A stretch of 64,000 bases of DNA, taken from Candidatus Rubneribacter avistercoris. Its GTDB lineage: Bacteria; Actinomycetota; Coriobacteriia; Coriobacteriales; Eggerthellaceae. Made by a program: the position numbers and the translations under genes. Within the stretch, counting starts at the first letter, position 1, and each line of letters starts with the position of its first letter. The notes under the pieces are model-generated. The model saw only the letters and a program-made list of their open reading frames with translations, had not been told where the DNA came from and ran no database searches. This document shows, in pieces, positions 17,839-24,545 of this stretch. The DNA is taken from assembly GCA_019115845.1 (NCBI GenBank), contig DXCU01000003.1:1-64000 (forward strand), given 5' to 3'.

Positions 17839-19176
17839 TCACTTCTCCAAAAACGACTCTTCTATGCCGCGCAGCTCCTCGGGCGTGTTGGCGTTGATGA
17901 AGCAGCCGCCCATGGGCTCGGCCTCCAGCACGCGGCTCTGCGGGAACTCGAACACCTCCACGTTCGGAAGGAACGACTGAGCGCTGCGCTCCCCCCGGTC
18001 GAGCGCGGCCCGCACGGCCAGCAGGCACGCATCGCGACGGTACAGGGCGTGGAACGGCTCGTAGCCGTGCTTGTTCACCGGCACCACCGCGTCGGCGCCA
18101 GACTCGTTCATGGCCAGCGCCTCGGCCACCACCAACGACGGGGACGCGAACACCATGTCGCAGGCCACCACGGCAACGTAGGGGTTGCGCGCCGCGCGCA
18201 GCGCCGTGTACAGGCCGGGCAGCGCGCCGCGGAAGTCCAGCTCGTCGCGCACCAGCTGGATGCCCAAGCCCGGGAACTCCTCGTGCAGAAACGCCAGGTT
18301 CTCAGGCTCGTTGGTGGTGATGACCAGGTCGTCGGCGGCCGGAGCCAAGCGCTCGACCAGCCGGCAGATGAGCGGACGACCGGCGAAAGGCACCGTCGCC
18401 TTGCTGCGCCCCATGCGACGGCTCTCGCCCCCCGCTTGGATGACCACCGTCACGCGCGGCCGCGCGTAGTGGCCTTGGATGAAATCCGCCAGCGCGGCCA
18501 CATCGTCCAAATCGAACGCGGGAATGCCGTAGATCGATGCGGCCTCGCGCGCCTCGGCGATATCGGTGACGACGGCCACGGTCCGCGCGCCGGGCATTTT
18601 GTTCGAGACGTCCCCATGGTCGGGGCGTTGCACGGCAAAGCGATCCCCGACCCCCGCAGAACACGCATGCGAAGCGCCCTGCGAAACCTCGCCGGCAGAA
18701 GGACCCTCGCTCAACGGCGCGTCCTCACGCGCGAGTTGCGTGAAGTCGGCGCCCAAAGGCCAGCCCCGGCGCGCGCCCTCGGCGAACACGGCGGCCACGC
18801 GGGAATCGGCCTCGCTGCCTGCGCGCATGATCTCGATGGTGGGCAGCCCGCTTTTGCGGTACCCCTCCACCACCACCACGTCGTGCCCCGGCATGCCGCG
18901 CACGATGTCGGCGCACTCCAACTCGCCTTCCACCGTCTTGATGCACGCCATCTGACCCGGCGCCGCTATCACCGTCTCGCTTGCGCCGGCGGCGCGGTGA
19001 CGGTAGGAATCCTTGCCGGGAATGTCGATGTCGAAGCCCACATGGCTGTGGTGCTTCACGCTGCCCACGTCCAAACCCCGGCTCACCAGCTCGGCGATCA
19101 GCTTCTCTATAAGCGTGGTCTTTCCTGAGTTGTGCCGCCCGACCACCGACACGGCCGGGCTGGGAATATTCACCAT
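17839..19176 (-). CDS. MobB-MobA fusion, molybdopterin-guanine dinucleotide synthesis
   Basis: A 445-residue fusion. MobB comes first, with Walker A GRHNSGKT at 13-20 and the KHHSHVGFDIDIPGKDS region. A variable linker (~150-240) leads to MobA, with its nucleotidyltransferase motif QAGGESRRMGRSK at 247-259 and a conserved CDMVFASP. MobA joins GMP to molybdopterin, giving the cofactor needed by DMSO-reductase-family enzymes such as the operon at 39-46 kb. MobB is the GTP-binding accessory. The order MobB-MobA in one chain is unusual compared with the separate E. coli genes. Confidence 0.93.
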   Translation of the reverse strand: MVNIPSPAVSVVGRHNSGKTTLIEKLIAELVSRGLDVGSVKHHSHVGFDIDIPGKDSYRHRAAGASETVIAAPGQMACIKTVEGELECADIVRGMPGHDVVVVEGYRKSGLPTIEIMRAGSEADSRVAAVFAEGARRGWPLGADFTQLAREDAPLSEGPSAGEVSQGASHACSAGVGDRFAVQRPDHGDVSNKMPGARTVAVVTDIAEAREAASIYGIPAFDLDDVAALADFIQGHYARPRVTVVIQAGGESRRMGRSKATVPFAGRPLICRLVERLAPAADDLVITTNEPENLAFLHEEFPGLGIQLVRDELDFRGALPGLYTALRAARNPYVAVVACDMVFASPSLVVAEALAMNESGADAVVPVNKHGYEPFHALYRRDACLLAVRAALDRGERSAQSFLPNVEVFEFPQSRVLEAEPMGGCFINANTPEELRGIEESFLEK

Positions 19177-19257
19177 GCGCGCCCCCTCTTTGCTCGGCGC
19201 CCAGTATAGCAGAAGCCGCGCGCGACACGGGCGCGCCGCACGGCCCCCTTCCCCAGC

Positions 19258-19495
19258 GGCCCATGCGAGATGTTTCCCGAAAAACGGCCAAGTTCCCCAG
19301 TTATGAGTCTTTTTTCGACGCCATGCCCGGTTTCTCTCACGAAACGCGCAAAACGCCGTTTGCGAACCACCTGGTCAGAAATTCTAAGTTGCAAAATATC
19401 TGATGCTGGCGTCGGAGAAAGGACTCATAACTTGGGAACTTGGGACTCATAACTGGGGAACTTGGCCATTTTTCGGGAAACATCTTGCACGAGCC
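19258..19495. repeat. Inverted-repeat element 1 (MITE-like)
   Basis: The left arm 19258-19309 and right arm 19444-19495 are reverse complements with about five mismatches. The inner 41 bases (19269-19309 with 19444-19484) differ at one base. The ~134-base centre carries a partial direct copy of the arm end (gactcataact, 19422-19454). There is no protein. It lies just upstream of mobBA and before a small RNA promoter. Confidence 0.8.
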
Positions 19496-19713
19496 TGCTC
19501 AACGCGCGCCTCAAGCCGGATCTTGGACCGCGCACCACCGAAGCTAAGCCGACCGCCCCGAACGCGGCAACCGCAGCAGGCCCACAGCTTGCGGCCCGTG
19601 GCGGGTTCGTAGCTCGCAGCTCGCGGCTCACGGCGGATCCGCGGCGAACTCGCGGCGGGCGGGGCGAAGGCAAAGGCAGGTTTTCGCCGTAGGAGCTTCG
19701 CCGAAAAAATATG

Positions 19714-19743
19714 TTGATATTTCATGGAGGGCGGTGCTATACT
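19714..19743 (+). promoter_or_regulatory. Sigma-70 type promoter of the orphan small RNA
   Basis: TTGATA (19714-19719), an 18-base spacer and TATACT (19738-19743). The predicted start is about 19750. No protein-coding gene follows on this strand. Confidence 0.7.
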
Positions 19744-19749
19744 GGACCT

Positions 19750-19854
19750 CGCTTTACAAAGGCTTGATGCTTTCGTAAAGAAAAGGGTTCTGCTTTTGGA
19801 GGGGAGCGGAACCCTTCTTCTTGCTTTCGGGACGGCGACGTCCCGATTTTTTTT
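19750..19854 (+). ncRNA. Orphan structured small RNA (unassigned)
   Basis: A ~105-nt transcript is predicted between a good promoter and a strong terminator. Three hairpins are visible: ctttac/gtaaag (19752-19780) with an inner aaag/cttt; aagggttc/gaaccctt (19783-19816) with a purine-rich loop ttttggagggg; and the terminator stem cgggacg/cgtcccg followed by eight U. The purine-rich loop could pair with pyrimidine-rich targets or mimic a ribosome site. It does not match the SRP, 6S, tmRNA or RNase P layout as I know them. It sits convergent to recR. Confidence 0.6.
19827..19854 (+). terminator. Rho-independent terminator of the small RNA
   Basis: An 8-bp stem (tcgggacg/cgtcccga) with loop gcga and an uninterrupted run of eight T at 19847-19854. 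The U-run is on the plus strand only, so it serves the small RNA and not recR. Confidence 0.9.
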
Positions 19855-19884
19855 GCCCGCACCCGGCTATCCCCGCAAACGCTC

Positions 19885-20481
19885 CTACACCTCGCGACGG
19901 CCCTCGAGGGCGCGGCCGAGCGTCACCTCGTCAGCGAACTCGAGGTCGCCGCCTACGGGCAGGCCGCTCGCGGGACGGGTGACGCGGATGCCGAGCGGCT
20001 TGATGAGGCGGGCCAGGTAGGCGGCCGTCGTCTCGCCCTCCACATTGGGGTTCGTGGCCAGCACCACTTCGCGCACCTCCTCGGAGGCAAGGCGCTTCAT
20101 GAGCTCGGCGATGCGCAGGTTGTCCGGCCCGATGCCCTCCAAGGGCGAGAGCGCCCCGCCCAGCACGTGGTACACGCCGTCGTAGACGGCGGTGCGCTCG
20201 ATGGGAGGGATGTCGCGCGGCTCGCTGACCACGCAGATGACGCCCGCGTCGCGCTTTGGCGACCGGCAGATCTCGCACAGGTCGTCCTCGGCGTAGTTGA
20301 AGCAGCGCTCGCAGAAGCGCACCTGGTCCTTCACCTCCGCAATGGCCTCCGCCAAGCGCAGCGCCGTCGCCTTGTCGGCGTTGAGGATCCAATAGGCTAT
20401 CCGCTGGGCGGACTTCGGCCCTACGCCGGGAAGACGCTCCAGCTCGTCGAGCAGCTTCTGGATGGACGGTGCCGCGTACAT
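19885..20481 (-). CDS. recR: Recombination protein RecR
   Basis: A 198-residue protein of normal length. It has the helix-hairpin-helix LERLPGVGPKSAQRIAYW, the zinc finger CERCFNYAEDDLCEIC and a Toprim domain containing CVVSEPRDI and LATNPNVEGETTA. RecR loads RecA at gaps with RecF/RecO. It follows the ybaB-like gene after 18 bases in the classic dnaX-ybaB-recR order. Confidence 0.97.
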   Translation of the reverse strand: MYAAPSIQKLLDELERLPGVGPKSAQRIAYWILNADKATALRLAEAIAEVKDQVRFCERCFNYAEDDLCEICRSPKRDAGVICVVSEPRDIPPIERTAVYDGVYHVLGGALSPLEGIGPDNLRIAELMKRLASEEVREVVLATNPNVEGETTAAYLARLIKPLGIRVTRPASGLPVGGDLEFADEVTLGRALEGRREV

Positions 20482-20499
20482 GAAAACCCCGCCTCCGGC

Positions 20500-20844
20500 C
20501 TACATGAGGCCCGGGATGTTGAGACCGCCCGTGGCGGCGTTCAGACGCTGGGAGCTCAGCTCGGACACGCCGCGCAGCGCCTCGTTCACAGCCGCGGTCA
20601 CCATGTCCTGCAGCATCTCCACGTCCTCGGGATCCACAGCCTCCGGATCAATGACGATGCTGGTCACGGACATATCGCCCGACGCGACCACCTTGACCAT
20701 GCCGCCTCCGGCGGTGGCCTCGAACGTCATGTCCTTGATCTCCTCCTGGGCCTTGGCCAGCTCGAGCTGCATCTTCTGCGCCTGCTTCATCATGGCGCCC
20801 ATGTTGCCCATGCCGCCTCCGGGGAACCCGCCTCGTTTCGCCAT
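20500..20844 (-). CDS. YbaB/EbfC-family nucleoid-associated protein
   Basis: A 114-residue protein with the family core MKQAQKMQLELAKAQEEIKD, then MVKVVASGDMSVTSIVIDPE. A Gly/Met-rich N-terminus precedes it. The start at 20844 is preferred over an ATG six bases earlier because GGAG lies six bases before it. It binds DNA as a dimer. The gene is between dnaX and recR, its usual place. Confidence 0.94.
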   Translation of the reverse strand: MAKRGGFPGGGMGNMGAMMKQAQKMQLELAKAQEEIKDMTFEATAGGGMVKVVASGDMSVTSIVIDPEAVDPEDVEMLQDMVTAAVNEALRGVSELSSQRLNAATGGLNIPGLM

Positions 20845-20921
20845 CGTCATCTCCTATCTGTCGTCGTCTCCTGCGCCGCGCGCATGCGACGGCGGCTTTC
20901 GCAGCGGTTTTCGCGCGAAGG

Positions 20922-23420
20922 TCATTCTCTCACTTCTTCGACAACTACGCCATCGCCGAATCCTGCGGCCAGGATGGCCTGCAGGTCGGCGGAGTCGGCC
21001 GGACCGGCAGGCGAAGGGGCCGCGCCCGGAGCCGCAGGCGCCTGGGGGACGGCCGCAGGCGGAGTCGCAGGGGCCGGCGCGGGTGCGGGAGCTGGCGCGG
21101 GCGGAGCCGCAGACGCCGTCGGAACGGGCGTGGCTGCCGGGGCGGACGCCGAGGCAGGGGCGGACGAGGCAACCGGAGCGGACGCCGATGCCGAGGCGGC
21201 AGAACGCTCCGACGGGGCCGAAACGGTTGCCGGAACCGAAGCAGACGCGGACCCCGATGTCGGGGCCGGAGCGAGCGCAACCGCAGGCGACGGAACAGGC
21301 GCGGACGGGGCCGGGACGCCGTAATCCGATTCGTCCGGAACGGGCGCGTCCGCATCGTCGTAGGGAACCTGATCGTCTGAGAAGGGCGGAACCTCGCGCG
21401 AAGCGGCGGGGGCTGCGGCTTGAACCTCGGGGGCCGGCGCGGGGGCGGAAGCGGGCGGCACGAGCTGGGTCGTCGCAGGGGCGGCGGGGGCCGGCGCGGG
21501 ATCCGAACGGCGTTCGGGCGCAACGGACGAGGGGGCCGACACCGGCTGAGCGGTCGGCTCGGGGGCCGGCGCCGTCGGCACCGGCGCAGCGGAGGCGCCG
21601 CCGGCCTGCACGTAGGCGAACGGAATCGCCTCGCCGCACGCTTGCGCGAGGGCGGCGGACACGGCCTGCTGCACGTCGGGCTTTTGCACGGCTTTGTACG
21701 CGAACGCGTTCTCGGCCGGGAACTCTATCGAAAGCACGCGCTTGCCGGCGTCGTAGGCGGCCTTCGCATTGAGGAAGAGCACCCCGTAGGCGGCCTTCTC
21801 CTTCTTGAGGGCCGACAGCGCGGCCTGCCAGATGCGCTGGAGCGCTGCGGGATTCTGCAGGCTCTCGCCCAACTCCGGGGAAACCCCTCCGCCGCCAGCT
21901 GGAGCTGCGGCGGGAGACGGCGACGAGGCGGGAACGGCTGAGGCCGGGACGGAAGCCACGTCCGAGGCCGCGGGAGCGGGCGCTGTCGGAACGGGCGCTT
22001 GCGGGGCGGGAGCGGATGCCGGAGGAGCGGCCTGGGTTCGATCTTGCGAAACCGGCTGCGGAGCAGCTGCGGACACAGCGGCAGCGGACTGCGCGGCAGC
22101 CGCGGCGGACTGCGGGATGAACCCGGCCGCAGCGGGCTGCGGGGCGGGCACGGCCGCAGCGGGCTCCGACGGCGCCGACGGCGCCACCGCAGGCGCCATC
22201 CCCGCCGCCGCAGGGACAGGCGCGGCCCCCGCCGTTGCAACGTTCGCCGCTCCCGCGCTCGTCACGTGCGCCACCGCCGAGTAGCCGCTCTCCAACGCCT
22301 CCACGCGCTCGGCCAGCGCCTCCAGCGTGAGGTCGGAATCCGGCCGCACCATGCGCGTGAGCGCTATCTCGAACGACAGGCGCGGGTTCGTGGACGTTTT
22401 CAGCTCCGCGGACAAATCGCCCAGCACCCCCAGCAGCCGCGAGAGGCGGTCGGGTCCAAACAGCGGCAGCTCGCTCGCCAGCTCGCGCCGCTCCGTATCC
22501 CCCACCTCCAGCGCCACGTCGGCGTCGGTGAGCGCCATAACGTACAGGTTGCGCACGTGCTCGGCCAGATCGCGTGCAAACTGAGCGAGGTCGGCGCCCG
22601 TCTCCACGAACTCAGCCGTCCAGCGGAAGCACCCCGCCACGTCCCGCGTGCCAATGGCTCGCACGATCTCGGCGAGATCGTTGGTGTCCACGCCGCCCAG
22701 CATGCGCTCGGCCACTTCCAGCGTGACCTTCCCCTCGCCAAACGCGATGAGCTGCTCGAGCGAGGTGAGCGCGTTGCGCATGCCGCCCTCGGCCCGGTGC
22801 GCCACAAGGTCGAGCGCCTCGCCTTCGAACTCCACGCCCTCGGACACGCACACCGCGCCCAGACGCGACACGAGCGCCTCCTGCGAGATGCGCCGAAAAT
22901 CGAAGCGCTGGCAGCGCGAATGAATCGTCTCGGGAACCTTCTGCGGGTCGGTGGTGGCCAAGACGAACACCACATGGCTTGGCGGCTCCTCAAGCGTCTT
23001 CAGCAGCGCGTTGAACGCCGCCGTGGACAGCATGTGCACCTCGTCGATGATGTATATCTTGTAGCGCCCGCGCGTGGGGGCGAACTGCACGCGGCCGATG
23101 ATCTCCTCGCGCACGTTCTCCACGCCGGTGCGGCTGGCGGCGTCCAGCTCGTAGACATCCGGGTGCTCGCCGTTGGCGATCATCTCGCAGTCCTCGCACG
23201 TGCCGTCGGGCTCGGGCGTGGGCCCGTGCTCGCACAGAAGCGCCTTGGCCAGCAGGCGCGCCGTGGTGGTCTTGCCCGTGCCGCGCGGGCCGGTGAACAG
23301 GTAGGCGTGGCTCACCTTGTCCTGCTCGATGGCGTTTTTGATGGTGCGCTCGATGTGCTCCTGGCCGACCACGTCCTCGAAGATCTGCGGCCGGTACTTC
23401 CTGTATAGTGCTTCCGACAT
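20922..23420 (-). CDS. dnaX: DNA polymerase III subunit gamma/tau
   Basis: An 832-residue protein. The AAA+ clamp-loader domain has Walker A GPRGTGKT at 44-51, zinc-site cysteines in CEHG and CEDC, Walker B IIDEVHML and sensor 1 LATTDPQKVP. Residues from ~390 on hold two long Ala/Pro-rich linkers around a conserved segment (~520-620, LQRIWQAALSALKKEKAAYG). The length is toward the upper end for the family because of the linkers. No slippery A-run is present for a gamma frameshift. Confidence 0.96.
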   Translation of the reverse strand: MSEALYRKYRPQIFEDVVGQEHIERTIKNAIEQDKVSHAYLFTGPRGTGKTTTARLLAKALLCEHGPTPEPDGTCEDCEMIANGEHPDVYELDAASRTGVENVREEIIGRVQFAPTRGRYKIYIIDEVHMLSTAAFNALLKTLEEPPSHVVFVLATTDPQKVPETIHSRCQRFDFRRISQEALVSRLGAVCVSEGVEFEGEALDLVAHRAEGGMRNALTSLEQLIAFGEGKVTLEVAERMLGGVDTNDLAEIVRAIGTRDVAGCFRWTAEFVETGADLAQFARDLAEHVRNLYVMALTDADVALEVGDTERRELASELPLFGPDRLSRLLGVLGDLSAELKTSTNPRLSFEIALTRMVRPDSDLTLEALAERVEALESGYSAVAHVTSAGAANVATAGAAPVPAAAGMAPAVAPSAPSEPAAAVPAPQPAAAGFIPQSAAAAAQSAAAVSAAAPQPVSQDRTQAAPPASAPAPQAPVPTAPAPAASDVASVPASAVPASSPSPAAAPAGGGGVSPELGESLQNPAALQRIWQAALSALKKEKAAYGVLFLNAKAAYDAGKRVLSIEFPAENAFAYKAVQKPDVQQAVSAALAQACGEAIPFAYVQAGGASAAPVPTAPAPEPTAQPVSAPSSVAPERRSDPAPAPAAPATTQLVPPASAPAPAPEVQAAAPAASREVPPFSDDQVPYDDADAPVPDESDYGVPAPSAPVPSPAVALAPAPTSGSASASVPATVSAPSERSAASASASAPVASSAPASASAPAATPVPTASAAPPAPAPAPAPAPATPPAAVPQAPAAPGAAPSPAGPADSADLQAILAAGFGDGVVVEEVRE

Positions 23421-24430: not shown

Positions 24431-24545
24431 AAGTATCCCGGATGGGCGGGAGCGCTCGTCAGCGGTCCCTTATGGCTGCTTCCTCCCGGACCTGACCAGG
24501 TTCGGAACATGGCGCCGCCCCGGCCCATCCGGGATACTCCCGTGC
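24431..24545 (-). ncRNA. ffs: Signal recognition particle RNA, small bacterial type
   Basis: The minus strand carries the conserved apical domain: GAACCTGGTCAGGTCCGGGA followed by GGAAGCAGCC. Its ends pair over 16 bases (agtatcccggatgggc with gcccatccgggatact), closing the rod of a ~110-nt 4.5S-type RNA. It binds Ffh for membrane protein targeting. TATACT at 24568-24573 (minus) is a likely -10 box about 20-30 bases upstream. Confidence 0.95.

Follow-up and report, generated by a model that had tools for sequence, protein, structure and literature searches.

A previously uncatalogued small RNA family with a GGAGGGG hairpin loop in Eggerthella-related gut bacteria

The window analysed here is a stretch of 64,000 nucleotides from Candidatus Rubneribacter avistercoris (contig DXCU01000003.1, positions 1 to 64,000). 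On its plus strand lies a -35 hexamer, TTGATA (19714-19719), followed after an 18-nt spacer by a -10 hexamer, TATACT (19738-19743), which is preceded by TG. When both strands of 19000-21000 were scanned for promoter-like sites, this was the sole match (shuffles give 0.3). In close relatives the -35 hexamer is aligned as TTGATA or TTGTGA, and the -10 is conserved among the copies described below. A small RNA of about 105 nt is predicted at 19750-19854 of the plus strand, its start being placed from the -10 hexamer and its end from the terminator. It comprises hairpin H1 (19752-19780, of the GARGC ... GCTTC type), hairpin H2 (19783-19816), which is the conserved core of the family, and hairpin H3 (19827-19846). 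H3 has an 8-bp stem and a tetraloop, is followed directly by a T8 tract (19847-19854), and forms with it an intrinsic terminator (19827-19854). Behind the terminator, the nearest gene is recR (minus strand, 19885-20481), which runs toward the small RNA; plus-strand open reading frames behind the RNA were judged to be mechanical. A preliminary description of this DNA had named the promoter, the three hairpins, a terminator with eight U and the absence of a downstream plus-strand gene, and had placed the whole between an inverted-repeat element and recR; each of these points was confirmed.

The inverted repeat (19258-19495) is a nested structure of about 240 bp with 52-nt arms that are 92% complementary. 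It recurs partly at at least eight places in the genome (contigs C91, C52, C67, C97, C18, C54, C26 and C80); here it forms a MITE-like insertion that separates mobAB from the small RNA. It is a separate, multi-copy element of the genome and no part of the small RNA, of which the window genome holds one copy.

The plus strand of 19744-19857 was computed to fold at -48.6 kcal/mol into the three hairpins. The z-score of this fold was -4.25, and none of 200 shuffled sequences folded equally well. No Rfam 15 family reached its gathering threshold at this locus of the window or in 15 copies of the RNA, and a known Rfam RNA was rejected on this ground; the preliminary description had stated that the layout matches no known housekeeping RNA and had named a hit to a known family as a refuting outcome, which the search did not yield. 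All matches in or overlapping the RNA stayed below threshold; they included ctRNA_p42d (28.4 bits, threshold 50), Leu_leader (31.4 bits, threshold 50) and microRNA families. The only Rfam 15 hit within 10 kb was a bacterial small SRP RNA at 24436-24531 (minus strand, 54.8 bits), near the dnaX-ybaB-recR cluster.

Clear relatives were found by blastn in other genomes of the same bacterial family. A covariance model built from 11 relatives (R1) matched 74 of 138 family genomes at E <= 0.1, and a second model built from 61 copies (R2) matched 76 of the 138 at E <= 0.05. The R2 matches covered 57 of 92 good-quality genomes and 26 of 48 genera. All but one of the 76 genomes had a single match, and a copy was present in a genus-mate of the window genome (G002). 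When the order was searched with R1, 52 of 297 genomes matched; two of these matches were weak and lay in another family, one having a GGAGGGG loop on a poor stem and the other lacking the core. With R2, 68 of 396 genomes matched in the class sample and 10 of 396 in the phylum sample, all within the family; no match fell outside it, though it is not evident that these samples included the two genomes with the weak matches. An exact pattern search among named genomes returned 16 records from Eggerthella, Paraeggerthella, Gordonibacter (including Gordonibacter sp. An230), Adlercreutzia, Enterorhabdus and Enteroscipio, all of which we take to be Eggerthellaceae. A virus-borne element was rejected, the pattern having no exact match in viral contigs. 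The RNA had been labelled an orphan; this stands as far as its single copy in its own genome and the lack of an Rfam family are concerned, but not with respect to relatives, which occur in at least 76 of the 138 family genomes. The small RNA is a previously uncatalogued family common to dozens of Eggerthella-related gut bacteria. In one genome (G001; L014 and L116, the latter at about 1170-1253), H2 occurs as an inverted duplicate that lacks H1 and the promoter, which reflects either a chimeric assembly or a recombination event.

The stems covary strongly, so that this check, proposed in the preliminary description, did not refute its reading. Covariation was examined on the complete set of 75 R1 matches, of which 70 are distinct, without removal of false matches. 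In this alignment 89.5% of cells were paired, and both-sided changes were seen at 18 of 20 pairs; cells with both-sided changes numbered 145, compared with 39 after shuffling and 24-40 after sliding. Because the alignment was made by fitting copies to the model, it favours the structure. Helices 1 and 2 of H1 were paired in 72% and 86% of cells. For the H2 helix the figure was 96.4%, and all ten pairs were altered on both sides. H2 was confirmed on a sequence-only MAFFT alignment of 57 copies, where 64 both-sided cells were counted against 27.5 shuffled and 21-39 slid, again with both-sided changes at 10 of 10 pairs, although this alignment places the AAUA-loop and AUA-loop copies in a shifted register. 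A register test on H2 agreed, but weakly (9.68 of 10 pairs, as against 8.72 when partners were exchanged).

In five of 55 copies (L072, L074, L075, L076 and L078) the 3' strand of H1 is able to pair with a segment beyond H2, where shuffling expects 0.02; all but one of these copies are closely related to each other. In this arrangement H2 caps a single long hairpin, and some copies have a T-rich tract behind it. In these lineages the long hairpin and H1 would be mutually exclusive, and the alternative pairing could possibly represent a switch or a replaced terminator.

Transcription signals were then counted over 63 copies (the 68 retained copies minus two with short flanks and three duplicates). 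A -10 hexamer matching at least five of six positions was present upstream of H1 in all 63, base shuffling expecting 12.25. A full promoter (at least 9 of 12) was found in 44 (5.45 expected), and 29 copies had a terminator by strict criteria, compared with 0.9 expected. The small RNA is probably transcribed from a sigma-70-type promoter of its own and ended by an intrinsic terminator, as we infer from these predicted signals. A small reading frame, ATG-CTT-CGG-TAA, in some Eggerthella copies was rejected as coding, being not kept elsewhere when inspected by eye.

The surroundings of the RNA were compared across the 68 copies. In 34 copies recR lay downstream of the RNA and pointed toward it, and in 13 it lay upstream with the same orientation as the RNA. 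The other 21 had no recR in the fetched flank, though some of these flanks are cut by contig ends. Where present (47 of 68) it adjoined the RNA by its 3' end. mobAB was found in 25 flanks, divergent and upstream in 23 and otherwise placed in two. Neither recR nor mobAB occurred in four (L120, L126, L130, L132) of the 16 named loci, which extend up to 8 kb; in L120 and L126 the small RNA lies less than 160 bases from the locus end. Such variation in placement and orientation means that the neighbourhood of recR is a favoured site, but that the RNA is untied to one gene or orientation; as the contexts differ in this way, the RNA is also unlike the cis leader of a fixed gene. It could be argued from the frequent contact with the recR 3' end, and from a diverged hairpin behind recR in two of 16 model-negative genomes, that the element acts in cis as an antisense or terminator of the recR 3' region, or as a hairpin at the DNA level. 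We consider this very improbable, given the flipped orientation in 13 of 47 copies, the flanks that lack recR, the -10 box in every distinct copy, and the named loci that have neither gene. The small RNA is an independent unit that usually adjoins the recR 3' end, whichever way it is oriented, but in some genomes lies at other sites. By prediction it has its own promoter and terminator and is independent of its neighbours, as is characteristic of trans-acting sRNAs.

The loop of H2 reads TTTTGGAGGGG in the window (19794-19804), with the core GGAGGGG at 19798-19804. Across homologues the H2 stem swaps to unrelated sequences (for example AGGGTTCTG, GGGACGCCG, GTCTCGC and AAAGCCTTG) while the loop core stays. 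The loop is mostly 11 nt long, and this 11-nt loop is the conserved unit. Among 59 distinct copies, four bases followed by GGAGGGG flush with the 3' arm was the commonest arrangement (31 copies), and TTTTTT-GGAGGGG-G the second (12); three had no clean stem under the counting rule. The core was present in 68 of 68 retained copies, an invariance that is partly by construction, the core having been used as a filter and required for the loop count. GGAGGGG was also present in each of the 67 R1 matches that scored E below 2e-4, but a match to the loop raises the model score. Three matches without the core (L104, L105, L107) had E-values of 9e-4 or worse, and one match (L069, E = 0.025) was antisense. 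The two diverged copies in model-negative genomes, found only by their position behind recR, have GGAGGGA (L164) and GGGAGGGGG (L176); therefore, the last G of the core is not absolutely fixed. The base preceding the core varies (U, A or G). The loop had been described as accessible; in the minimum-energy fold of the window copy GGAG is indeed free, but part of the loop is closed by U-G wobbles. In another genome (G130), locus L106 has at about 2081-2153 a second hairpin with a long stem and GGGAGGGG in its loop but no clear promoter, perhaps a paralogue or a chance occurrence.

A constant loop on a freely changing stem of about ten pairs is as expected of a recognition loop, and hints at a specific partner to which the loop binds. 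Our preferred reading, to which we assign a probability of roughly one half, is that this is a free-standing regulatory RNA of the Eggerthellaceae that would act in trans through pairing of its loop with C-rich RNA. The transcript would run from the sigma-70-type promoter to the intrinsic terminator, and H2 would be its working part, in which the variable stem supports the loop, mostly 11 nt long and of the form UUUU (or AAUA)-GGAGGGG. The purine core abuts the 3' arm, like loops that are preorganised for pairing. It would pair with sites resembling CCCCUCC in at least one other RNA, whose translation or stability would be altered as a result. The computed duplex of the core with its full complement, CCCCUCC, has an energy of -13.6 kcal/mol.

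Candidate targets were searched for in several ways. The 11-mer CCCCTCCAAAA, the target expected for the extended loop, gave 29 non-self matches in 20 genomes compared with 21 for the reversed control, and in seven of the 20 it was confined to the RNA itself; an extended-loop target was rejected, none being found in these genomes. CCCCTCC occurred three times at -40 to +20 of 330 crude gene starts of the window genome, while its six permutations gave 0, 1, 0, 1, 3 and 1, so that no clear enrichment was seen. No conserved complementary site was found near the small RNA. These tests are low-powered for a 7-nt seed, and a seed with few targets would escape them. The outcome also fits a different reading, in which the GGAGGGG loop binds an RNA-binding protein other than CsrA and the RNA sequesters or guides that protein; hairpins bound by proteins just as typically combine a short, invariant loop with a stem that varies. 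On the other hand, CsrA, the best-known binder of GGA loops, is found in none of the 138 family genomes (the same search was positive in E. coli, B. subtilis and T. maritima), so that CsrA titration was rejected, and none of the neighbouring protein genes accompanies the RNA in every copy. Binding of another protein appears to us somewhat unlikely.

The loop could, alternatively, mimic a Shine-Dalgarno (SD) sequence, its GGAGG pairing with the 3' end of 16S rRNA so that the RNA parks on the 30S subunit or tunes translation. GGAGG is an SD core, and in the window genome GGAGGG and GAGGGG are found upstream of 22 and 18 of the 330 crude gene starts. The duplex of GGAGG with the 16S tail was computed at -9.8 to -10.7 kcal/mol. 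However, only five to six loop bases would pair, leaving out the last two G, which are nearly as conserved, and a mimic should favour AGGAGG, whereas the base before the core varies. Mimicry of this kind is, in our judgement, distinctly unlikely.

This mostly single-copy RNA, with its loop fixed over about 26 genera, would offer a defined entry point to post-transcriptional regulation in the group. Gut bacteria of the Eggerthellaceae metabolise drugs and plant compounds. No covariance-supported sRNA family of the Eggerthellaceae emerged from the Rfam scans of the locus or from literature searches, and the covariance model enables others to annotate the small RNA. At the level of titles and abstract beginnings, searches of the literature on small or structured RNAs of Eggerthella and Coriobacteriia gave no report of it. 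Passages of an E. lenta RNA-seq study describe depletion probes for rRNA, ssrA and rnpB, and those passages make no mention of the small RNA (PMC10234575).

Several known systems may be compared with this RNA. The CsrB/RsmZ-type RNAs, which titrate CsrA, likewise present GGA in hairpin loops. They carry several such loops, whereas here the motif is in the loop of H2 alone, the core is longer (GGAGGGG) and CsrA is absent. ANTAR-target RNAs resemble it in having two adjacent hairpins, but theirs bear hexanucleotide loops, in contrast to the mostly 11-nt loop of H2. The 6C RNA of Actinobacteria is a small intergenic RNA with C-rich hairpin loops, and the likeness lies in the intergenic location and in loops with a conserved, homopolymer-like core, which is C-rich there and G-rich here. 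The 6C model (RF01066) had no match in the window region or in the 15 copies. Its cut-off was reached in none of 21 genomes (the window's own and relatives), and 6C was rejected both as the family and as a C-rich partner; the test is a weak one, none of 14 control genomes having reached the cut-off and Corynebacterium glutamicum giving a match only below it. The UCCC-loop sRNAs of Firmicutes (RsaE/RoxS, LhrC) are C-rich and block SD sequences. They too are stem-loop sRNAs that expose a short conserved seed, but the loop described here has the polarity of the SD itself. An SD-like loop that is presented to C-rich RNAs or ribosomes, as a lineage-wide sponge or ribosome-parking RNA, would have a polarity opposite to that of the known C-rich anti-SD sRNAs; we regard such a role as unlikely. 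We regard the small RNA as a new family within the established class of bacterial intergenic sRNAs, with a mode of action that is possibly more unusual.
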